Origin: Methanospirillum hungatei JF-1
GTDB lineage: Archaea > Halobacteriota > Methanomicrobia > Methanomicrobiales > Methanospirillaceae
NCBI RefSeq assembly: GCF_000013445.1
Contig: NC_007796.1
Coordinates: 3,260,936-3,324,935, forward strand
DNA: 64,000 nt
Direction of reading: 5' to 3'
Shown here: positions 2,214 to 60,535 of the stretch, piece by piece
Layout: every line of letters begins with the position of its first letter
Position numbering within the stretch: the first letter of the stretch is position 1
Notes under the pieces: generated by a model
Databases searched by the model: none
What the model was told of the DNA's origin: nothing
Seen by the model: only the letters and a program-made list of their open reading frames with translations
Translations under genes and position numbers: made by a program

Positions 2214-3125
2214 TTAATTGGTAAGGGGAACAAACCCTTCTTCAGTAACGATCTTCTGCCCTTCAGGACTGTCGATGAAGGCAATGAATTCAGCAATAAT
2301 TCCGGATGGCTCACCATTGGTCAGGAAATTAAGCGGACGGGCAATCGGATATGATTTGTCCTTTACCGATTCAATCGAGGGGATTATTGATTTTCCATCA
2401 ACAAGGATCGGCACTGCGTGGATGGTCTCATCGATGTAGCCAAGACCTACATACCCGATTGCTGCAGGAGTCTGTGCAACACTCTGTTTTACCGCACCAT
2501 TTGAGTTCTTTTCAAGCTGAGTCGGAACAAAATCCTCTTTGTTCATAACCTTCTCATGGAAGAACTCTCTTGTCCCTGATGCACTGTCTCTGCCGATGAC
2601 AACAATTGATGCATCATTCCCTCCAACTTCTTTCCAGTTGGTAATATTTCCGTTGTAAATAGCTTTTACCTGATCAAGAGTAAGAGAAGCGATCGGGTTT
2701 GTCTTGTGAGTGATGATGGCTATTCCATCAATGGCAATCTGATGCTCAAGTAACTCAGGATATTTCTCTTTCTCTTCTTTCTTCAGATCACGGGAGGCCA
2801 TTCCGATCATGGCGGTCCCTTCTCCAGCCGACTGGACTCCAGCCCCGGAACCCCCACCATTGACCTGCACATCAACACCCGGATGAGTATCCATATAGAT
2901 TTCTGCTGCCTGCGCTGCGACCGGAAGCACAGTGGTTGAACCGGTAATCGTCAGAACACCGGCTGCTCCGGGCTGAACCTTTGTTTCTTTCAGCGGGTTT
3001 TCACCGGTTGAAACCGGGGTGGTTTTTTCAGTTTCAGTTGTCCCTGTACATCCGCAGAGGAGCACGGCACAAATAAATAGTCCAATCAGGATAATTCCTG
3101 ATACAATTGTAGTCTTACCAGCCAT
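2214..3125 (-). CDS. pstS: Phosphate-binding lipoprotein PstS
   Basis: This 303-residue extracellular receptor delivers phosphate to PstCA. The N-terminus has a positively charged start, a hydrophobic helix and a lipobox-like LLCGC (Cys about residue 26), followed by a Thr-rich linker. The fold markers are GSTTVLPVA, GSGAGVQSA and GRDSASGTREFF, which in this family line the phosphate pocket. It is convergent with pstAB-phoU rather than at the head of that operon, so it has its own promoter. That promoter is preceded by an unusual inverted-repeat region, suggesting separate control. Confidence 0.95.
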   Translation of the reverse strand: MAGKTTIVSGIILIGLFICAVLLCGCTGTTETEKTTPVSTGENPLKETKVQPGAAGVLTITGSTTVLPVAAQAAEIYMDTHPGVDVQVNGGGSGAGVQSAGEGTAMIGMASRDLKKEEKEKYPELLEHQIAIDGIAIITHKTNPIASLTLDQVKAIYNGNITNWKEVGGNDASIVVIGRDSASGTREFFHEKVMNKEDFVPTQLEKNSNGAVKQSVAQTPAAIGYVGLGYIDETIHAVPILVDGKSIIPSIESVKDKSYPIARPLNFLTNGEPSGIIAEFIAFIDSPEGQKIVTEEGFVPLTN

Positions 3126-3159
3126 GGTAACTCACGTATCAACACCTATAACGAAACCA

Positions 3160-3170
3160 GATATTAAACT
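3160..3170 (-). promoter_or_regulatory. Probable TATA box of pstS
   Basis: The minus strand reads AGTTTAATATC here, about 40 bases upstream of the pstS ATG. That places transcription start roughly 10-15 bases before the start codon. It was read by eye and is not proven. Confidence 0.45.
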
Positions 3171-3175
3171 GATTA

Positions 3176-3246
3176 TCTCCAGAGAATATAGAGACATCAG
3201 ATATCTCTATAGTGCCATAGAGATATGAATGTCTGACATCTGGAGA
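3176..3246. promoter_or_regulatory. Nested inverted repeat between pstS and the divergent sensor gene
   Basis: The core is a perfect 10-base inverted repeat, ATATCTCTAT (3201-3210) and ATAGAGATAT (3217-3226), with a 6-base spacer. Around it lie GACAT (3193-3197) with ATGTC (3229-3233), and TCTCCAGA (3176-3183) with TCTGGAGA (3239-3246), all nearly concentric. The short word ATAGAGA recurs again at about 3251. The structure sits just upstream of the pstS TATA box, where an archaeal activator would bind. It is a candidate phosphate-response operator. Confidence 0.5.
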
Positions 3247-3355
3247 CTTATTTATAGAGATAGACGGTACTTTTACTATTCACTGGTCATTTTCAGGATC
3301 AGAATCTTCAATTATAATTTGCATAATTTTCATAACTCAATAATCTGGACCTCCC

Positions 3356-4780
3356 ATGTATCGCGTGCTGTATGTAGATGACGAACCAGGTATCCTAGAA
3401 CTGGTCAGGATGTACCTGGAAAGTTATGGATCAATGCTTGTTGATACATGCCCTTCTGCAGATGAAGCAAAAGATCTTGTCAGAAAGACAGGGTATGATA
3501 CCATCGTTCTTGACTACTACATGCCTGATGTAAATGGTATTGATTTTTTAAAAGAGGTAAGACAGAGCGGACTTGACTGCCCGATCATCATCTATACCGG
3601 CAGAGGCAGGGAAGATGTTGTTATCGATGCTCTCAATAACGGTGCAGACTTTTACCTGCAAAAGTCAGGAGAGCCGGGCAGGGAATTTGCAGATCTTTAC
3701 TCAAAGATCAACCTTGCCATTCAGAAATATTATGCGGAAAAACGGGTGAAAGAGACCACTGCGTTACTTCGTTCGACCCTTGAATCCACCGCGGATGGTA
3801 TCATCGTCGTTGACAGCGAAGGAAAGATTTGCGCTTGGAACAGGAAATTTGTTCAGATGTGGAATATCCCCTATCATCTTGTGGAAGGAGGGGACTATTC
3901 TGCGATTCTCAGTTATATCCTCCCGCAGATAACAAACCCGAATCATTTTTTCAACCGCACCGATTACCGGATCAGAGAAGGAATCAGACCGGGGATAGAT
4001 ATTATTGAACTACGGAACGGGAAGATGTATGAGCGGTACTCCCAGCCCCAGATGATTGATGGGGAGATAGTCGGGAAGGTGTGGAGTTTTCGTGATATTA
4101 CTGCGAAAAAAAGTGCAGAGGATGCACTTCGGGAGAGTGAAGAGCGGTTTCGTCTGCTCTTTGAACAGGCCCCGGTTCCGTACCAGTCTTTGAATGAAAA
4201 AGGGGAGATAATCGAGGTGAATGAGGCCTGGGTAAGACTGATGGGATATGAGAGGAACGAGGTTATTGGCAGATCGTTCATGACCTATATTCCTGAAAAG
4301 TGTCTCAATGATTTTCAACGGTTCCTCCTTGATATCTCTGAATTTGGATCAATGTATGAATCCGAACTTATCATCCTCCACTCGACCGGAAGAGAGATCC
4401 CGGTCATACTATCAGCAAAGATGCTGACAGGAGGGCCTGATATGGGAGTGCGGACGTTGTGGACGTTCACCGATATTTCAGAGCAAAAACGTATCGAATC
4501 CCAGAAAGAAGAAGTTATCATTCAGATTCAGAAAAATCTTGCCGAATTAGCCATATTAAATGACGGGGTCAGAAATCCTCTCACCGTTATCGCAGGACAG
4601 GCAGAACTGACTCTTGGTGATAGAGCTGGACCGATACTCGCACAGGTGAGGGAGATCGACCAGATGATAGACCAGCTTGACCAGCGATGGCATGAGTCCA
4701 CGAAGATACTCAAATACCTGCACCGTCATCACGGAGTCTTTCTGATTCACCCGGATGGGGACCTGGATGGTGAATTATGA
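3356..4780 (+). CDS. REC-PAS-PAS signalling protein with degenerate histidine-kinase stub
   Basis: The 474-residue protein begins with a response-regulator receiver domain (about 2-118; acidic DDE near the start, phosphoacceptor Asp in VLDYYMPD, switch Thr in IIYTGRG, Lys in LQKSG). Two PAS domains follow (about 130-250 and 258-385). The last 80 residues resemble a histidine-kinase dimerisation helix (LNDGVRNPLTVIAGQAEL), but the usual phosphorylated His is replaced by Asp and there is no ATPase domain. It cannot be a working kinase on this evidence. It could instead receive phosphate and pass a conformational signal. It is divergent from pstS across the inverted-repeat region, so a link to phosphate sensing is possible but unproven. 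Confidence 0.85.
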   Translation: MYRVLYVDDEPGILELVRMYLESYGSMLVDTCPSADEAKDLVRKTGYDTIVLDYYMPDVNGIDFLKEVRQSGLDCPIIIYTGRGREDVVIDALNNGADFYLQKSGEPGREFADLYSKINLAIQKYYAEKRVKETTALLRSTLESTADGIIVVDSEGKICAWNRKFVQMWNIPYHLVEGGDYSAILSYILPQITNPNHFFNRTDYRIREGIRPGIDIIELRNGKMYERYSQPQMIDGEIVGKVWSFRDITAKKSAEDALRESEERFRLLFEQAPVPYQSLNEKGEIIEVNEAWVRLMGYERNEVIGRSFMTYIPEKCLNDFQRFLLDISEFGSMYESELIILHSTGREIPVILSAKMLTGGPDMGVRTLWTFTDISEQKRIESQKEEVIIQIQKNLAELAILNDGVRNPLTVIAGQAELTLGDRAGPILAQVREIDQMIDQLDQRWHESTKILKYLHRHHGVFLIHPDGDLDGEL

Positions 4781-4875
4781 CCCATAAAGACGCTTGATGT
4801 TCCTGATCATATTTTTTATCCCTGATTCCGGTATGGGAAACCCTATTGCCCCGGAGAGGGAACAGATCCGCAGAT

Positions 4876-5583
4876 ATGGACGTAACCCTCATTGATCTGA
4901 TTCTTCATATTGATTCATCACTTGAGCAGATGGCCGGCGAATTAGGACTCCTCATCTATGCCGTCCTCTTTCTCATCATCTTTTGTGAGACAGGACTTGT
5001 CGTAACCCCGTTCCTGCCAGGAGATTCGCTTCTCTTCGTGTCAGGAGCCCTTGCCGGAACCGGGATCCTTAATATCTGGGTTCTGCTTCTTATTATCGGG
5101 CTTGCTGCAATCATCGGAGATACGGCAAACTTCTGGATCGGCAGATATGCCGGGTGTAAGATCATGGAGGGTCGGCTTTCTGCATTCATTCATAAAGAAT
5201 GGCTGGAAAAGACACATCACTACTTTGAGAAATATGGGGGGGCAACCATCGTTATCGCACGGTTTGTCCCGATTGTCAGGACTTTTGCTCCGTTCCTGGC
5301 TGGGATCGGGAAGATGCACTACCAGTGGTTTCTGTTCTATAATGTCACCGGTGCAATACTCTGGACCGGAGGGCTTGTCGGAGGCGGATACCTGATTGGA
5401 AATATTCCGGTCATATCTGACCATGTCTCACTTCTGATGTGGGTCGTGCTGGGAATATGTATCTTCTCAATAGCCATGGTAATAAAAGCCATCCTTTCAG
5501 CCGCCCTCTATGACAAAAAGAAAGAAAAAACAACAGGAGATTCTGCTGCTGACTACTGTTACCGCCTTGAAGTGGAGAAATAA
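4876..5583 (+). CDS. DedA/SNARE-associated family membrane protein
   Basis: This polytopic membrane protein of about 235 residues belongs to the DedA (VTT domain) family, linked to lipid flipping and envelope maintenance. Family marks are FCETGLVVTPFLPGDSLLF, GDTANFWIGRYAG and the motif RFVPIVRTFAPFLAGIG. The ATG at 4876 gives the typical start (MDVTLIDLILHID). A TTG at 4846 would add ten charged residues and is less likely. The C-terminus is a short Lys-rich cytoplasmic tail. Its place between the pst genes and the polyphosphate genes may be coincidental. Confidence 0.9.
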   Translation: MDVTLIDLILHIDSSLEQMAGELGLLIYAVLFLIIFCETGLVVTPFLPGDSLLFVSGALAGTGILNIWVLLLIIGLAAIIGDTANFWIGRYAGCKIMEGRLSAFIHKEWLEKTHHYFEKYGGATIVIARFVPIVRTFAPFLAGIGKMHYQWFLFYNVTGAILWTGGLVGGGYLIGNIPVISDHVSLLMWVVLGICIFSIAMVIKAILSAALYDKKKEKTTGDSAADYCYRLEVEK

Positions 5584-5695
5584 CCCCTGACTTCAGTTCA
5601 CACGACGGATGGCAGCAGGATCAAAGGAGTGAAATAGGCTCCCCCATATACCATACATACCAGGTTGCCTACTGCTCCAGTACGGGAGGAAATTG

Positions 5696-7606
5696 ATGAG
5701 ATGTGATCACAGACATACACAGGATCCTGCTTTTTCCCGGTATGCTGCTCTGACGATGCTTCCGCTCCTCCGATCATTACAGCAGGAGTTATCAGGAGTC
5801 AAAACGGCAGATGATATCGAATATGTCCATCGGGCACGGGTTGCAACCCGACGGCTCAGGGCATGCCTTACCATATTCTCCCCCTGCCTCCCGTCTCATA
5901 ATGTTAAAAGATGGAGACGCACCATCAGAAACATTACGAGGTCACTTGGTGAGGCTCGTGACCTGGATGTCCAGACTGATTTTATCAGTTCATTTATTGC
6001 GAAACAATGCAGGGACTCCTGTCAGGGAGAGGTATTCTACTATTCCTCCCCATTAGCAGACAATAAACCTGATAATGAAGGGAATGAACGTTCGTATCAC
6101 CCGCTCTTTTTCAGAGTGACAGAAGGGAAAACCGGTGAGGAATCCGTATCTGAGAGCCTTCTTTCATGCACCTCATTTGATATACACAGACCAGGTCTGG
6201 AATGTCTGCTCCACCGATTAAAAACCCGGCGTCAACAGATACAACCGGATCTTGTCAGCGCCGTCGACCAACTGGAAAAGACAGCGGTTCTTGAATCAAT
6301 AACGACCTGCCTGCATGAACTGAAGGTCAGAGCAGAGATTGAGGATGGTGGAGACGTTTCTCCATTCTCCTATGAACAGGCGTTTGTCAATATCATGACC
6401 GCCATCTCCGATCTCTTCTGGTATGAACCCTGGCTTTTAGAACCTGATAATATCCATCGTCACCATGAGATGCGGATCGCTGCAAAACGACTTAGATATA
6501 CCCTGGAGTCGTTCGCAGGTCTGTTTGAATGCGGATTGAAAACCGAGATTAAGACATTTAAAAATCTTCAGGATGTTCTTGGTGACATGCATGACTGCGA
6601 TGTCTGGATTGAGAAAATCCCCCTCTTCATCAGGGATGAGAAGAAACGAGCACTCAGGTATTTTGGAAATTCTGACTTTTTCTCTATCCTCCAGGAGGGG
6701 TTATATAAACTCCTTGATAACCGGAAGAAGAAAAGGGCAGAACTTTTTTCCGAACTGCATACCCTCTGGGACTCACTCAAACAGGAGGGATTCTGGGACG
6801 AGCTGATGGAAAAGGTATCAATTCCTGTCCATCATTCATTCCAGGAACGTTCAGACCAGTGCCATGACGGGCCGGTTACGATTGCCCTGATATCAGATGT
6901 TCATGCAAATCTTCCTGCCCTTGAGGCGGTACTTGCTGATGCACGGCAGAAGGGTGCTACGGCAGTACTCAATGCTGGTGATAGTATTGGATATGGTGCA
7001 TTTCCTGACGAGGTCATATCATCTCTTCGTTCATCACATGTCCTCTCGGTTATTGGAAATTATGACCAGGCAGTCCTTGTGAAAAAATGGAAGACAGGAA
7101 GGCCCAGGTCACGAGACAAGCAGATCGCGATGCGGTTTGCATACCATCATCTCTCAAAGGAGAATCGTGCCTACCTCGCAGGGCTTCCGAGGGAATATAG
7201 ATTGAGGGTAAAAGGAACTACCATTCTGGTCACCCATGGAAGCCCTGATTCGCTTACTGAATATCTTGTCCAGGAGACGCCGGAGTCAAGGTTTCGTGAG
7301 ATTGCACAAAAGACAAAGGCAGATATTATTGTAACCGGTCATTCCCATCTCCCGTCCATCAGGGAGATTGATAATGTGGTATTTGTGAACTGCGGGAGTG
7401 TCGGGAGAACAGAAGATGGCGATCCCCGTGCTTGCTATGCCCTGCTGACATTAGACCCGCTCTCAATCGTTCATGTACGGGTACCGTATGATATTGACCG
7501 GGCAATTGATGCCATCAGAAACCGCCACCTTCCTGATTCATTTGCCAGGATCGTCTCCGAAGGAAAGCCCCTGGATATCGTATCCGAACCGGAGGATTCG
7601 GTCTGA
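5696..7606 (+). CDS. CHAD domain-metallophosphoesterase fusion
   Basis: The 636-residue protein has an N-terminal CHAD domain (about 15-380), a helical domain that binds polyphosphate. It shows the paired conserved His/Arg helices (YVHRARVATRRLRACL and HHEMRIAAKRLRYTLESF). A calcineurin-like phosphoesterase follows (about 390-630), with metal ligands in SDVHANL, NAGDSIGYG, GNYD, THG and GHSH, the YfcE/MJ0936-like order. I infer that CHAD recruits a polyphosphate substrate to the esterase. GGAGGA lies 5 bases before the ATG at 5696, which decides the start over the TTG at 5693. The stop overlaps the next start (TGATG). Downstream are an HD-domain protein and an exopolyphosphatase. Confidence 0.88.
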   Translation: MRCDHRHTQDPAFSRYAALTMLPLLRSLQQELSGVKTADDIEYVHRARVATRRLRACLTIFSPCLPSHNVKRWRRTIRNITRSLGEARDLDVQTDFISSFIAKQCRDSCQGEVFYYSSPLADNKPDNEGNERSYHPLFFRVTEGKTGEESVSESLLSCTSFDIHRPGLECLLHRLKTRRQQIQPDLVSAVDQLEKTAVLESITTCLHELKVRAEIEDGGDVSPFSYEQAFVNIMTAISDLFWYEPWLLEPDNIHRHHEMRIAAKRLRYTLESFAGLFECGLKTEIKTFKNLQDVLGDMHDCDVWIEKIPLFIRDEKKRALRYFGNSDFFSILQEGLYKLLDNRKKKRAELFSELHTLWDSLKQEGFWDELMEKVSIPVHHSFQERSDQCHDGPVTIALISDVHANLPALEAVLADARQKGATAVLNAGDSIGYGAFPDEVISSLRSSHVLSVIGNYDQAVLVKKWKTGRPRSRDKQIAMRFAYHHLSKENRAYLAGLPREYRLRVKGTTILVTHGSPDSLTEYLVQETPESRFREIAQKTKADIIVTGHSHLPSIREIDNVVFVNCGSVGRTEDGDPRACYALLTLDPLSIVHVRVPYDIDRAIDAIRNRHLPDSFARIVSEGKPLDIVSEPEDSV

Positions 7607-8187
7607 TGAAGAGATCGGTCTGGCCGGTTATCCAGGACTATTCAGACAGGCTGGACCCGGATCCTCCTCATGCACAACAGGTATGCCGGTTATCAGGTAT
7701 GTTATTTGACGATTTACGCCCCCTGCACCATCTGCCCCCTGATACCCGGGATTTATTAAAAGCGGCAGCTCTTCTCCACGATATTGGCTGGAGTATAGCA
7801 GATAAGCCCCATCATAAAGCATCACGGGACATAATCCTCAATGATACAACAATGAACCTGACATCCAGGGAGAGAAAGATAATTGCGTTAATTGCACGAT
7901 ACCACCGGAAGTCTCATCCAAGGCCTGATCATGCCGTCTTTAAAGAACTCTGTGAGGATGATAAGCAGATTGTTTCCTGGTGCTCCGGCATCCTCCGGGT
8001 AGCTGACGTCCTTGATCGGGCACATCAGAATCTGGTCAGAGAAATTCGCTGCTTTATTGCATCAGAAGAGATTGTACTCTCCTGTACCTGTAAAACCTCA
8101 TTCTACTATGATTTACCAGTCTTTGCAGAGAAAAGCATGCTTTTACAAGAACTTACCCATCGCAGGATTTGTCTTTCATGCACCTGA
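7606..8187 (+). CDS. HD-domain phosphohydrolase resembling the C-terminal domain of Ppx
   Basis: This 193-residue protein has the HD metal-site motif (LLHDIGW near residue 57), then HHKASRDII, and a stretch IIALIARYHRKSHP. The same stretch recurs almost word for word in the C-terminal HD half of the exopolyphosphatase encoded next (LIARYHRKKLP). It looks like a free-standing paralogue of that domain. It is coupled to its neighbours, overlapping the upstream stop by one base and the downstream ATG by ten bases. Substrate is unknown; polyphosphate, or a nucleotide such as pppGpp, is suggested by context only. Confidence 0.8.
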   Translation: MKRSVWPVIQDYSDRLDPDPPHAQQVCRLSGMLFDDLRPLHHLPPDTRDLLKAAALLHDIGWSIADKPHHKASRDIILNDTTMNLTSRERKIIALIARYHRKSHPRPDHAVFKELCEDDKQIVSWCSGILRVADVLDRAHQNLVREIRCFIASEEIVLSCTCKTSFYYDLPVFAEKSMLLQELTHRRICLSCT

Positions 8188-53000: not shown

Positions 53001-53043
53001 GAGGGCTTCCCATCAGTTCATGTTTTATAAGGAATATCCGATT

Positions 53044-55164
53044 ATGAATTCCAATACTATCATCTTTCAGAATACATCGCGCGAAAAACATTCAGTAATT
53101 ACTATCAGGATGATGTCACACTCCACCGTAGTTCCCGTATCAGTCCTGATCACTATTCTGGTCCTGACCGGTCCGGTGCTTGGCACTCCGATCTCCACAG
53201 CAACGCCGCCAGGTATGAACCTGTCAATTGATCCAGGAGAGGATTTCTTTTCATACGCAAATTACCACTGGATTGCCGACCATCCGGTCCCTGAAGATCA
53301 AAAATTCTATACTGCTTTTGAAGAAGTAAAAGAGTTGGTTGACAGCCGGGTGAGAACGCTTGTAGAAGAAGCAGCATCAGATTATGATGCAGAAAAGGGA
53401 ACCCCCCGGCAGTTACTCGGATCATTTTACCGTGCAGCCCTGAACGATGAGTCAAATGCAAGGACAGGACTTACCCCGGTCCAGGATGAACTTGAGGAAA
53501 TTGCACAGGCATCGGATCGGAGTGAGATTCGCATTGTCACATCAAATCTCACCGCACGGGGACTTGACCCATTTTTTATCCTGTATATTGATGAAAACCC
53601 GGAGAAGAGAAAGGAGCTTATCGCGACCATAGAGACCGGTGATTTCACCATCCGGTTCCCTCCATTCTATGAACTTGAATTTGATGAGGCCATCAGGGTT
53701 CAGAATCTGATGAAAGAGTATGTCACTACAACCTTCATGGAACAGGGAATGGATCGTGAAAAAGCCCTCCATGCAGCCGATGTGGTATTCAGGATTGAAC
53801 GACGGATGGCTCAGGCCGAGATGGGTATGAATACTTCCCATGCAAACTCCTCTGAAGAACTCAAAGCCGGAACATACCAGGTAGCGGATCTGCGTACCCT
53901 CTTTCCAGGTATCAGCTGGGATGCTCTTCTGGAGAGATCAGGAAGACCTGATCTTCAGGAGATTTACATTATGAACCCGCATTACCTTCGGGAAGTGGGC
54001 AGGATACTCTCATCAGAACCGGTTGAAGATCTGAAACTCTTCCTGACCTGGCGGGTTCTCCAGTATGCAGCACCTTATGCCACCCCTGAAATGCAGGAGC
54101 GGTATTATGAATTTTATGATGTGAAACTCTCAAAAGGGGAGATAACACCTCAAAAGGATCGGATTTTTGGCATCATGAACCTCTACCTGGGAAACCCGAT
54201 CGCCCATCTGTATGTGGATCGGTATTTTAGTGCTTCTGACAAGGCAAAGGCAGAAGAGATCGTCCGGAATATCAGGGAGGTAATGAGGGAACGGGTGCAG
54301 AACCTCTCCTGGATGAGTCAGGAGACGAAGGATATTGCCCTTTTAAAGATGGATTACCTGAAAGAGCAGGCAGGATATCCGGAGGAGTGGGGGCAGTACC
54401 GGAACCTGACCATCGAAGACACGTCATACCTTGAAAACATGCTGGCCCTGACTGAATACTTCACCAACGGGAGCCTGCAGCTCTCTGGTGAGCCCTCCGA
54501 CCCGGATGTCTGGTATGTATCCCCGCATGGTGTTGAGGCACACTATGATCTTGTCCATAACCGGATCATTGCCCCGGCTGGATTTTTAAACCCGCCCTTC
54601 TTTGATCCGAAGATCGATGATGCCTGGAATTACGGTTCATTCGGCTGGGTGTACGGCCATGAACTCATTCACATGATCGACATTGGTGGCCAGCAGTATC
54701 ACCCTGATGGTAAAAAGGAGAATTGGTGGACAGACAGCGATGCTAACGAATATTTCCATGCGGCATGGCCTCTGATAGTGCAGGTTAATTCAACGCAGGT
54801 TCAAGATAACCTGACCCTGAACGGGACACAGATGCTGATAGAGAGTTCAGCAGATCTTGGAGGCCTTACGCTTGCATATAATGCATTTCTCAAATCCCGA
54901 TCAGATCCCGATACACTTGATATACCGGGAATTGACGGCCTGACTGATAGGCAGCGGTTCTTTGTTGCATTTGCCCAGGCCATGCGGGGGAATATTACCG
55001 ATGAGAATCTGCGTAATGTTACCGCCACAGAGGATCATCCCTGGAATAAATTCAGAGTAAATACAATCCCTTACCACCTGGATGCATTCTATGAGGCATT
55101 TCCTGATATCAATCCTGGTGATTCACTCTACCTGAACGAGACTGAGCGGGCACGACTCTGGTGA
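53044..55164 (+). CDS. M13-family zinc metallopeptidase (neprilysin/PepO-like), exported
   Basis: The protein of about 706 residues has a signal peptide (about 24-48 in this frame; STVVPVSVLITILVLTGPVL) and the M13 N-terminal region (DPGEDFFSYANYHWIADHP). The catalytic HELIH lies at about residue 539, with the third ligand in ESSADLGGL about 60 residues later. VNTIPYHLDAFYEAF and the terminal Trp follow family habit. These enzymes cut short peptides outside the cell. M13 is mainly bacterial and animal, so transfer is plausible. AAGGA precedes the ATG at 53044. An upstream ATG at 53020 is possible. Confidence 0.93.
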   Translation: MNSNTIIFQNTSREKHSVITIRMMSHSTVVPVSVLITILVLTGPVLGTPISTATPPGMNLSIDPGEDFFSYANYHWIADHPVPEDQKFYTAFEEVKELVDSRVRTLVEEAASDYDAEKGTPRQLLGSFYRAALNDESNARTGLTPVQDELEEIAQASDRSEIRIVTSNLTARGLDPFFILYIDENPEKRKELIATIETGDFTIRFPPFYELEFDEAIRVQNLMKEYVTTTFMEQGMDREKALHAADVVFRIERRMAQAEMGMNTSHANSSEELKAGTYQVADLRTLFPGISWDALLERSGRPDLQEIYIMNPHYLREVGRILSSEPVEDLKLFLTWRVLQYAAPYATPEMQERYYEFYDVKLSKGEITPQKDRIFGIMNLYLGNPIAHLYVDRYFSASDKAKAEEIVRNIREVMRERVQNLSWMSQETKDIALLKMDYLKEQAGYPEEWGQYRNLTIEDTSYLENMLALTEYFTNGSLQLSGEPSDPDVWYVSPHGVEAHYDLVHNRIIAPAGFLNPPFFDPKIDDAWNYGSFGWVYGHELIHMIDIGGQQYHPDGKKENWWTDSDANEYFHAAWPLIVQVNSTQVQDNLTLNGTQMLIESSADLGGLTLAYNAFLKSRSDPDTLDIPGIDGLTDRQRFFVAFAQAMRGNITDENLRNVTATEDHPWNKFRVNTIPYHLDAFYEAFPDINPGDSLYLNETERARLW

Positions 55165-57338: not shown

Positions 57339-57347
57339 CTTTATATT
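57339..57347 (+). promoter_or_regulatory. Probable TATA box of the dockerin-cohesin operon
   Basis: CCTTTATAT lies about 27 bases before the ATG at 57370. With no Shine-Dalgarno before that ATG, this spacing fits a leaderless transcript beginning at or next to the start codon. Confidence 0.45.
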
Positions 57348-57369: not shown

Positions 57370-58971
57370 ATGGGGGAGAGAATCGTGCTGAGGCATTACT
57401 CGTTGATACTTTTCGGTGTCCTTGCAATACTCCCGGTAATGGTATGTGGGGCAGCGCCAGGAGATATACTGAAAAACCAGGTATTCGGACTTCCGGAGGG
57501 GGCTGAATGGGGGTATGGCCTGGATACCTCACCTGATGGGAATACAACCGTATGCGGTGTAGCATATCCGGATCAATCAATTAATCTTGAGCACCTGGGG
57601 AATGGCGATGCCTGGGTCCTCAGATTTGATACGAACGGGTCTATCATCTGGGAGAAACTCTTCGGGGGAAATGAGACCGATTATGCGTTGTCTGTGAGGA
57701 ATCTTCCGGATGGGGGGGCGGCAGTCATCGGTACCACCGGTTCATACAATGGTGATGTAACCGGCTATCATGGAAACGGAGATCTATGGTTCATTAATCT
57801 TGGACCAGACGGAAATATCCGCTGGGATCGGGCCCTTGGTGGCAGTCTGACTGATGAGGGATCGGACGTTGTTTTACTGCCGGACAGAGGATATGTTCTG
57901 TGCGGGTATACCATGTCTTCAGACGGATATACCAGACGACAACTCGGGGGGGGAGATCTCTGGCTTATCAGACTGGACAGGAATGGAACCGTTTTGTGGG
58001 AGCAGACCTATGGCGGGAGCAGACGTGACAGCGGGGCCAGTATTACCCTGACCGGAGACAATAGCCTCGTTGCGTGTGGAAATACCAACTCAACCGACGG
58101 TATGGTATCCGGAAACCGGACCAGCAGCGATGTATGGGTGATAAAAACCGATCTGAACGGGACCGTGATCTGGGAGCGTTCCTTTGGGGGTTCGGGACTG
58201 GAATGGGGCCATTCGGTCATCGAACTTACATCAGGAGACCTCATGGTTGCTGCAGTCACTGCATCGGGGGATGGTGATGTCGGGAAAAACCATGGAGCAG
58301 GAGATGTCTGGCTGATGCGGATTACCCCTGATGGAACCCTTGTCTGGAAACAGACCTATGGCGGAAGCTTTAGTGACAATGTCTGGAAACTTGAGCCGTC
58401 ACCGGGAGGAGGAGCATACCTTGTTGGAGACAGCTACTCAGTTGATGGTCACTTTACCGGTAATCATGGTGAGTCGGATCTGCTGATAGCTGAAGTGGAT
58501 GGAGACGGGAACCTGCTCTGGTACAGACAGATCGGAGGCTCATCAGTTGATCGGGGATCCTGGGTGAAACATACCAACGCCGATACCCTGATGATCACCG
58601 GTATGACTGCATCATCAGATGGTGATATATCAGGGGATCATTCGAGTGGTGATCTCTGGATCCTTGAGGTGGAAGGGAGTACTGCCCAGCCGGTTTCAGA
58701 GTCTGAACCACTGCCAGCAATGACGATTCCGGCAGAACCTGCGATCGGCCCACTGGGTGGAGACGGCCCGGTTCCGACCGATCCTGATGGTGATGGCAGA
58801 TATGAGGATATGAACGGAAATGGCAAGACGGACCTGCAGGATCCAACGGTATTCTTCAAGTATTTCTCCTGGCTGCAGAGTCAGGGATATGTATCTGCAT
58901 TTGATTTTAATGAGAACGGAGCCCTGGATCTGAGCGATGTCCAGGCACTATTTACGGAGATTCAATCATGA
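57370..58971 (+). CDS. Seven-repeat propeller-like protein with C-terminal dockerin-like module
   Basis: The protein of about 533 residues has a signal sequence (about 8-30). Seven similar units of about 52-57 residues follow (about 38-445), each ending like GDLWLIRLDRNGTVLWEQTYGGS. Seven copies are the number needed to close a beta-propeller. After an acidic/Pro linker come two EF-hand-like loops, DMNGNGKTDLQD and DFNENGALDLSD, spaced as in dockerin modules, which grip cohesins. No membrane anchor is visible. The next gene, in ATGA overlap, encodes a cohesin-like protein, so this could dock onto it outside the cell. Confidence 0.85.
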   Translation: MGERIVLRHYSLILFGVLAILPVMVCGAAPGDILKNQVFGLPEGAEWGYGLDTSPDGNTTVCGVAYPDQSINLEHLGNGDAWVLRFDTNGSIIWEKLFGGNETDYALSVRNLPDGGAAVIGTTGSYNGDVTGYHGNGDLWFINLGPDGNIRWDRALGGSLTDEGSDVVLLPDRGYVLCGYTMSSDGYTRRQLGGGDLWLIRLDRNGTVLWEQTYGGSRRDSGASITLTGDNSLVACGNTNSTDGMVSGNRTSSDVWVIKTDLNGTVIWERSFGGSGLEWGHSVIELTSGDLMVAAVTASGDGDVGKNHGAGDVWLMRITPDGTLVWKQTYGGSFSDNVWKLEPSPGGGAYLVGDSYSVDGHFTGNHGESDLLIAEVDGDGNLLWYRQIGGSSVDRGSWVKHTNADTLMITGMTASSDGDISGDHSSGDLWILEVEGSTAQPVSESEPLPAMTIPAEPAIGPLGGDGPVPTDPDGDGRYEDMNGNGKTDLQDPTVFFKYFSWLQSQGYVSAFDFNENGALDLSDVQALFTEIQS

Positions 58972-59945
58972 AAATTTCCCCAGTATGTATTATCCTGATT
59001 ATTATGATCGGGTTTGTTATTTCAGGAGTTGAGGGCGCGACAGTATCCATACAGCCTGCAACACTTTCGCCTGGAAATACAGGTACGGTAGATATCCTGC
59101 TTGACTCGGCATCAACAGGAATATCCGGGTACCAGATGACCGTGCAGTCTGACAATGCTGCAGTAGCTGTGGTGACCGGAGCAACATTTCCTTCCTGGGC
59201 TGCTCTCTCAGAAGCAGTACCTGGTGACGGGGGATCGTATGCTCTCCGGGCTATTGATCTGAACAGCGGAGTAGAGGCGGGTGCAACACAGGTCACCCTT
59301 GCCACCCTCTCAGTACAGGCGGCCGGTAGCGGGACTGCACAGATTACGATTCAGAACCTCCAGATCGATGATGATGCAGGAAATCCCCTTCAGGCAGAAG
59401 CAAAGAGCGGGACGGTAACGGTATCCGGAGGCGCACCTCCGACAGAACCATCAACCCAGGAGATCCCGGTTACTCTTCAGACCGGATGGAACCTTATCAG
59501 TATCCCCATGCAGCCTGCTGCCGGTTTTGAGTACGCGGATATTTTCAAAGATGTTCAGAGTGCCGGCCATTCGATTCTGACATATGATCCTTCAGCCGGG
59601 TGGATAACTATAGGGAAAGGCGACCGGCTGATCCCCATGACGGGATACTGGATATACACAACCAGTCCGGTCACCATCCCTCTGACCGCTCAGGGATCAC
59701 CAACCGGACCGAAGAACCTGAACGCAGGTTGGAATCTTGCAGGGATCAGCGGCACCTCAACGCAATCTGCTGAAACTGCCCTGTCAGGAATCTCATCATG
59801 GTCATATGTTGTCTCGTACGACGCTGGCAGGCAGCAGTACCGGGATGCAGGCATAAAAGGGGGACAGAACCAGATTATGCTGACTCCGGGGGAGGGGTTC
59901 TGGATTTATCTTGATGCACCCGGCACCCTCAGCCCAGGTACGTAA
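58968..59945 (+). CDS. Secreted cohesin-like protein
   Basis: The 325-residue protein has a signal peptide (about 1-24) and a cohesin-type domain (about 25-160; VSIQPATLSPGNTGTVDILL, GISGYQMTVQSDNAAVAVV, GTAQITIQNLQIDDDAGNPL). A second region has two repeats of a WNL motif (GWNLISIPMQPA and GWNLAGISGTS) with a GYWIYTTSP/GFWIYLDAP pair. Cohesins bind dockerins. The upstream gene encodes a dockerin-like tail and overlaps it by four bases. No C-terminal anchor is visible; it stops at PGT. A following 47-base gap precedes a third secreted protein. Confidence 0.82.
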   Translation: MKISPVCIILIIMIGFVISGVEGATVSIQPATLSPGNTGTVDILLDSASTGISGYQMTVQSDNAAVAVVTGATFPSWAALSEAVPGDGGSYALRAIDLNSGVEAGATQVTLATLSVQAAGSGTAQITIQNLQIDDDAGNPLQAEAKSGTVTVSGGAPPTEPSTQEIPVTLQTGWNLISIPMQPAAGFEYADIFKDVQSAGHSILTYDPSAGWITIGKGDRLIPMTGYWIYTTSPVTIPLTAQGSPTGPKNLNAGWNLAGISGTSTQSAETALSGISSWSYVVSYDAGRQQYRDAGIKGGQNQIMLTPGEGFWIYLDAPGTLSPGT

Positions 59946-59992: not shown

Positions 59993-60535
59993 ATGGAGAC
60001 TTGGAACATGATGTACAAAACCGGATTATGCTTTCTGTTTATTATCCTTCTCGCCGCAGGAGTATCAGCAATTCCTCCGCTGCCATACGAATTCTATGGT
60101 AATGTATCAATAAACGAAACACCCGCAGAAGTTGGAACAATAATTATCGCGAAAGTAAATGGGACCGAAGTTGGTAACATCACCACTACTGCTCCTGGTG
60201 CATATGGGGGAGCGGGGACTTTTGACCGCCGTCTGGTAGTCAATGGAGCTGAAGACCAGATAGGTGAGTACATCACCTTCTGGATTGGAGAGAAGCAGGC
60301 TGCCCAGAAGGTCAAACTCTATGCAGGTGAGTCTCAAAAACTTGATCTGACCTTCACCCCTGGAAAAGAGGGGAGCATCGATGCATCAGTCACCCCGTCC
60401 CAGTCTGGAACCATTGCCAATGTCCCGACCGGTGAAGAAACACCGGTAGCAACAGAGACACAGACGAAGGCACCGCTCTTTATCGCCCCGATAGCAGCAG
60501 GACTTGCATTAATCATTCTTGCCCGCAGAGACTAA
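59993..60535 (+). CDS. Secreted/anchored small surface protein
   Basis: The 180-residue protein has a signal sequence (about 8-27), a beta-rich domain (about 30-125; YGNVSINETPAEVGTIIIAK, GTFDRRLVVNG), a Thr/Ser/Glu linker (about 126-155) and a C-terminal membrane helix (FIAPIAAGLALIILARRD). It is a probable surface subunit of the same locus as the dockerin and cohesin genes. A TATA-like TTTTTATAC about 35 bases upstream may give it a separate promoter. Confidence 0.8.
   Translation: METWNMMYKTGLCFLFIILLAAGVSAIPPLPYEFYGNVSINETPAEVGTIIIAKVNGTEVGNITTTAPGAYGGAGTFDRRLVVNGAEDQIGEYITFWIGEKQAAQKVKLYAGESQKLDLTFTPGKEGSIDASVTPSQSGTIANVPTGEETPVATETQTKAPLFIAPIAAGLALIILARRD

Follow-up and report, generated by a model that had tools for sequence, protein, structure and literature searches.

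Three neighbouring genes of Methanospirillum hungatei JF-1, here named A, B and C, probably constitute a non-cellulosomal cohesin-dockerin cassette for surface display. The genes lie in the window, which is the whole stretch of 64,000 nucleotides that was analysed (G000:C1:3260936-3324935 of the 3,544,738-base, single-contig genome), and their features are collected in Table 1. In the proposed arrangement, the products of A, B and C would all be exported via signal peptides. We infer that the propeller protein A docks through its dockerin onto the one cohesin of B, with calcium presumably occupying the two dockerin loops, that the C-terminal GW module retains B in the cell envelope and that the membrane-anchored protein C probably provides the point of contact within or close to the membrane. 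In this way, the propeller would be displayed as one among several cargoes, with the cargo being exchangeable while the dockerin-cohesin couple stays.

Table 1. Features of the A-B-C locus, with positions counted in the window
Feature	Position	Strand	Basis or remark
TATA-box-like promoter element TTTATATT	57340..57347	+	candidate element of the operon, with a putative function
Ribosome binding site GGGGGAG, gene A	57372..57378	+	conserved ahead of GTG in L119, L121, L122 and L123
Gene A, secreted 7-bladed SBBP-type propeller with C-terminal dockerin	57385..58971	+	528 aa, GTG start
Seven-bladed beta-propeller	57466..58674	+	gene A residues 28-430; AlphaFold model m2b0126f33438, CylK match Z 50
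Dockerin with upstream PTDPDGDGRYED segment	58774..58968	+	profile A4 match, E 1.7e-32 in its own genome, the window's own row being included in the profile; pLDDT about 90-95
Dockerin calcium loop 1, DMNGNGKTDLQD	58807..58842	+	sequence
Dockerin calcium loop 2, DFNENGALDLSD	58903..58938	+	sequence
Loop aspartates of the gene A dockerin			residues 475, 486, 507 and 518, numbered from the GTG start
Gene B, secreted cohesin with C-terminal GW module	58968..59945	+	325 aa
Cohesin domain	59031..59432	+	gene B residues 22-155; Pfam PF00963, Foldseek, structure alignment
GW module, tandem GWNLISIP...GYWIY repeat, C-terminal, ~160 aa	59460..59942	+	second half of gene B
Gene C, secreted PPLPYEFYGN-type domain with C-terminal membrane helix	60008..60535	+	third gene, conserved in L119-L124

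The sequence-only reading had described two open reading frames, and both A and B are present in the sequence. Its start for gene A, an ATG at 57370, was corrected to the GTG at 57385 by comparison with the corresponding loci of relatives. The upstream ATG is absent in L122 (M. stamsii) and reads into a TGA in L121, while the TATA box, the GGGGGAG and the GTG are conserved; the TATA-like box is kept together with its flanks in L119, L121, L122 and L123. The product of gene A contains, in order, a signal peptide (read from the sequence), a propeller and a dockerin. The seven near-repeats described previously correspond to seven four-stranded blades in the AlphaFold prediction, and these blades together with the SBBP-like repeats mark the domain as a 7-bladed propeller of the SBBP type. 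The repeats match the NCBIfam model Lepto_SBBP_lipo at E 3.5e-13, under the cut-off of that model. In structure alignment, the propeller is closest in type to that of CylK (7ron, 7fh6-8), with an rmsd of 2.0-2.2 and 24% identity. In CylK, an alkylating enzyme, a further domain is attached to the propeller; that of gene A adjoins a dockerin, and the domain search of the locus protein recognised no enzyme domain in this cargo, in agreement with the earlier view of a propeller cargo lacking an enzyme.

The tail of gene A has the make-up of a dockerin. Each of the two loops, which the sequence-only reading had already picked out, is 12 residues long with Asp or Asn at positions 1, 3, 5, 9 and 12, and each is followed by a helix in the model (pLDDT around 90-95), giving two segments of calcium loop plus helix with no preceding E helix. 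The structural match list of the whole-protein model was taken up by propeller entries. Pfam Dockerin_1 gave 18.2 bits (E 0.0029) against a curated cut-off of 22.9, which is a score threshold and not a structural trait. A dockerin profile built from relatives matches the family at E values down to 1e-36, and profile A4 joins the gene A dockerin to other dockerins of the same genome, some of which pass the Pfam cut-off. In this archaeal group, the dockerin lies six residues or fewer from the C-terminus in all 56 unique cases, and a PTDPDGDGxYED segment precedes loop 1 in 49 of them. Profile A4 matched the solved dockerins 5lxv_B, 2y3n_B and 1ohz_B at E values from 8e-4 to 0.08, with some EF-hand proteins, e.g. 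1jfj, scoring better. Clostridial cellulosomal type I dockerins carry a Ser-Thr recognition pair at loop positions 10-11. This pair is absent in the gene A dockerin, which has Leu-Gln and Leu-Ser there instead.

Gene B overlaps gene A by ATGA, as noted before, and the overlap is kept as CAAYCATGAA in five relatives (L119-L123). In its product, a signal peptide (read from the sequence) and a cohesin are followed by a second half about 160 residues long. The match to Pfam PF00963 is marginal, with 24.6 bits for the whole protein at a cut-off of 24.1 and 22.5 bits in the genome search. The fold is predicted with high confidence. A cohesin-like fold had been proposed for residues 25-160 of a secreted protein, and the model bears this out with a nine-stranded jelly-roll at pLDDT 91-98 over the domain. 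Foldseek returned the cohesin 2xdh of Archaeoglobus fulgidus as the best match (E 4.2e-9). With a second aligner, all 50 listed structural matches, which cover residues 20-155 only, were cohesins, with Z values of 11.6-17.0 and an rmsd of about 2.

Gene C had been omitted from the sequence-only reading and is part of the A-B set. Its product begins with a signal peptide, continues with a small domain and ends in a membrane helix. The signal peptide and the helix were read from the sequence; the helix is not accompanied by PGF, and there was no NCBIfam match. The open reading frame has an alternative start at 59993, and a relative in L038 suggests 60008, so that the gap between B and C is 47 or 62 bases, respectively. 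A, B and C occur in identical order in seven genomes, namely the window and L119-L124, with the L121 contig ending inside C. Module by module, the set is 92-97% identical to that of an M. hungatei MAG (M59, L119). The modules are under purifying selection, with Ka/Ks of about 0.05-0.2 for each one where measurable. The set is adjoined by thioredoxin-reductase-like and DNA-methylase-like genes. These neighbours recur close to the set in L038 and L039 as well, so vertical inheritance of the locus appears likely.

How common is such a pair? The sequence-only reading had placed it among scattered archaeal examples and had suggested a search across Methanomicrobiales. In 150 genomes of the order, where the counts from genome searches are lower bounds, the cohesin family was found in at least 53 genomes and the dockerin family in at least 67, which does not agree with rarity; both families also occur outside the order within the phylum. 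Of the 153 dockerins listed, 53 lie no more than 2 kb from a listed cohesin. In 29 of these the cohesin lies downstream in the next gene or genes, and all 29 have the dockerin first and on the same strand. In the other 24 the cohesin, mostly part of the same protein, precedes the dockerin, either N-terminal to it or just upstream, and is read in the same direction. None of the 53 pairs has its members on opposite strands. At least one dockerin-cohesin pair is present in 34 of 38 genomes. In near-closed genomes, 11 next-gene pairs were observed as compared with 0.06 expected, and the maximum in 5000 circular shifts was 4. An isolated or chance pairing of A and B is ruled out by the circular-shift test and the conservation of the locus. 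Proteins with several cohesins occur in some relatives; one methanogen relative, for example, encodes three cohesins in a single 749-aa open reading frame (G033:C1:272371-273573, in L100), a scaffoldin-like arrangement.

The genome of M. hungatei contains, among the matches listed, six dockerins and five cohesins, arranged as three paired loci and three lone dockerins. The cargo of these dockerins comprises propellers, subtilases and a beta-helix, with two dockerins besides that of gene A being carried on subtilases; in relatives, NHL, SBBP and PD40-type propellers are found as other cargo. One of the M. hungatei loci (L054, G000:C1:2768000-2781000, genes 2724-9938) encodes a protein of 1531 aa with SBBP, PKD, cohesin and dockerin parts in this order and, behind it, two cohesin-PKD proteins. 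The exchange of cargo is seen best at a further locus. In M. hungatei (L104:5744-8050), an S8 subtilase-PKD-dockerin protein is followed by a lone cohesin. At the syntenic locus of M. stamsii (L105:4725-6828), a papain-like C1 protease replaces the subtilase, while the PKD-dockerin tail is 66% identical and the cohesin 72% identical. That the cargo was swapped and the dockerin tail and the cohesin were kept suggests that the dockerin-cohesin couple is the conserved unit.

Do the dockerin of A and the cohesin of B then work chiefly with each other? With six dockerins and five cohesins in one genome, cross-pairing is possible, and both modules may function in free pairing across the genome, with adjacency reflecting shared regulation. 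The divergence of dockerins and cohesins is correlated (Mantel r 0.70 over 33 pairs). When a same-protein cohesin served as the control for shared history, however, the partial correlation with the next-gene cohesin was 0.01 (13 loci). The control thus left no surplus co-divergence with the next-gene cohesin, and the mirror-tree argument for A-B pairing was dropped as support. In addition, G069 and G117 have more than 40 dockerins each as against five or six cohesins among the matches listed, which suggests that one cohesin serves many dockerins. We nevertheless regard predominant cross-pairing as unlikely for A and B, given the strict order and strand of all 29 listed next-gene pairs, the translational overlap of the two genes and the joint retention of dockerin tail and cohesin at L104 and L105.

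The display reading, in which B binds A and holds it at the envelope, also depends on the GW module. No Pfam family matched this module in the Pfam search, and a profile search of PDB sequences found no solved relative. Of 48 proteins with the module, 47 have 0-3 residues between its end and the C-terminus. In M. hungatei, the genome search placed it in about 15 proteins, among them subtilases, PKD proteins and two S-layer paralogs. The latter are adjacent DUF3821 proteins encoded at 484665-492240, both of which end in a GW module. Two S-layer paralogs, Mhun_0424 and Mhun_0425, are present in sheath preparations, and Mhun_0425 has an N-terminal extension of ~100 residues (PMC11641113). The second protein of the pair at 484665-492240 has about 137 residues ahead of DUF3821. 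Since the order and the N-terminal extension in the second protein agree, the pair probably corresponds to Mhun_0424 and Mhun_0425. The co-occurrence of the module with such proteins suggests that it attaches proteins to the envelope. From the sheath role that the sequence-only reading had put forward, we retain a location of the cassette in the sheath or S-layer as plausible.

A more extended version of the display reading is possible, and we offer it tentatively. In it, a three-link relay of Methanomicrobiales would lead from the cargo-dockerin protein to the cohesin-GW protein and from there to a C-type membrane protein or into the S-layer and sheath. On this view, the GW module would represent a new and widespread means of envelope attachment, which also fixes the S-layer paralogs, and the C-type protein would be its receptor. 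At 69 of the 150 places listed, a C-type domain starts 15-184 bases behind the GW match, on the same strand in every case.

A different view of the GW module would leave B unattached; the module would then aid secretion or folding or bind a ligand, and A and B would be released as a complex. Sequence inspection revealed neither a PGF motif nor a C-terminal membrane helix in the products of A and B. Release would fit the lack of a PGF-CTERM tail in B and a GW module that contains no membrane helix and has no solved relative by sequence. The strictly C-terminal position of the module in about 15 M. hungatei proteins, with two S-layer paralogs among them, and the frequent occurrence of a C-type gene directly after a GW gene argue against it, and we consider release improbable, to about the same degree as predominant cross-pairing. 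That the tail of A is an ordinary EF-hand and the domain of B an Ig-like cohesin lookalike, with no interaction between them, is very improbable: the weak Pfam scores of both modules and the EF-hand proteins such as 1jfj scored by the dockerin profile are outweighed by the structural matches of the B domain, all of them cohesins with 2xdh first in Foldseek, by the match of profile A4 to solved dockerins and by an adjacency of A-type and B-type genes far above chance.

Compared with known systems, the cassette is closest to the archaeal ones. Binding has been demonstrated for archaeal versions of cohesins and dockerins (PMC9012536, PMC9705933), and the two A. fulgidus modules, which bind each other with high affinity, have already served as an orthogonal pair (PMC9705933). 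The A. fulgidus cohesin 2xdh, like that of B, is archaeal and non-cellulosomal and aligns to it at Z 16.4. The identity over the cohesin, however, is 16-17%, and the M. hungatei locus has a three-gene set with fusions of cohesin to GW module and of propeller to dockerin. For the cohesin and dockerin proteins of ANME archaea, no cellulose role was seen and a connection to the S-layer was suggested (PMC9012536), a likeness that extends to the present locus on both counts. In the ANME systems, a protein may have up to five cohesins, the cargo consists of substrate-binding proteins and S-layer domains occur on dockerin proteins (PMC9012536), whereas here there is one cohesin at the locus, on the GW protein, and the cargo consists of propellers and proteases. 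The cassette is distinct from both the Archaeoglobus and the ANME systems in three respects: the pair is bound to its locus and has one cohesin, the cargo can be exchanged, and the cohesin is fused to a C-terminal module that is shared with S-layer paralogs.

The clostridial cellulosome employs the same pair of interaction modules, and B resembles a single-cohesin anchoring scaffoldin in its logic. The M. hungatei locus differs from it in having no SLH domain, and a cellulosome was rejected because there is no cellulase, no carbohydrate-binding module and only a single cohesin. Within M. hungatei itself, the nearest parallel is the family of DUF3821 S-layer paralogs (Mhun_2263 family, PMC11641113), two adjacent members of which share the GW module of B. 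The main S-layer protein differs in ending in PGF-CTERM instead of a GW module, and B has no DUF3821.

The cassette makes the role of archaeal non-cellulosomal cohesins and dockerins testable in a cultured model methanogen. If the display reading is true, many archaea would fix surface proteins by an exchangeable plug and not by one anchor each, and the GW module together with its C-type partner would represent a new route of attachment. The cassette also offers further binding pairs for engineering. Upstream of the locus, positions 53020-55164 of the window encode a metallopeptidase of the M13 family (neprilysin-like) that probably has a signal peptide.
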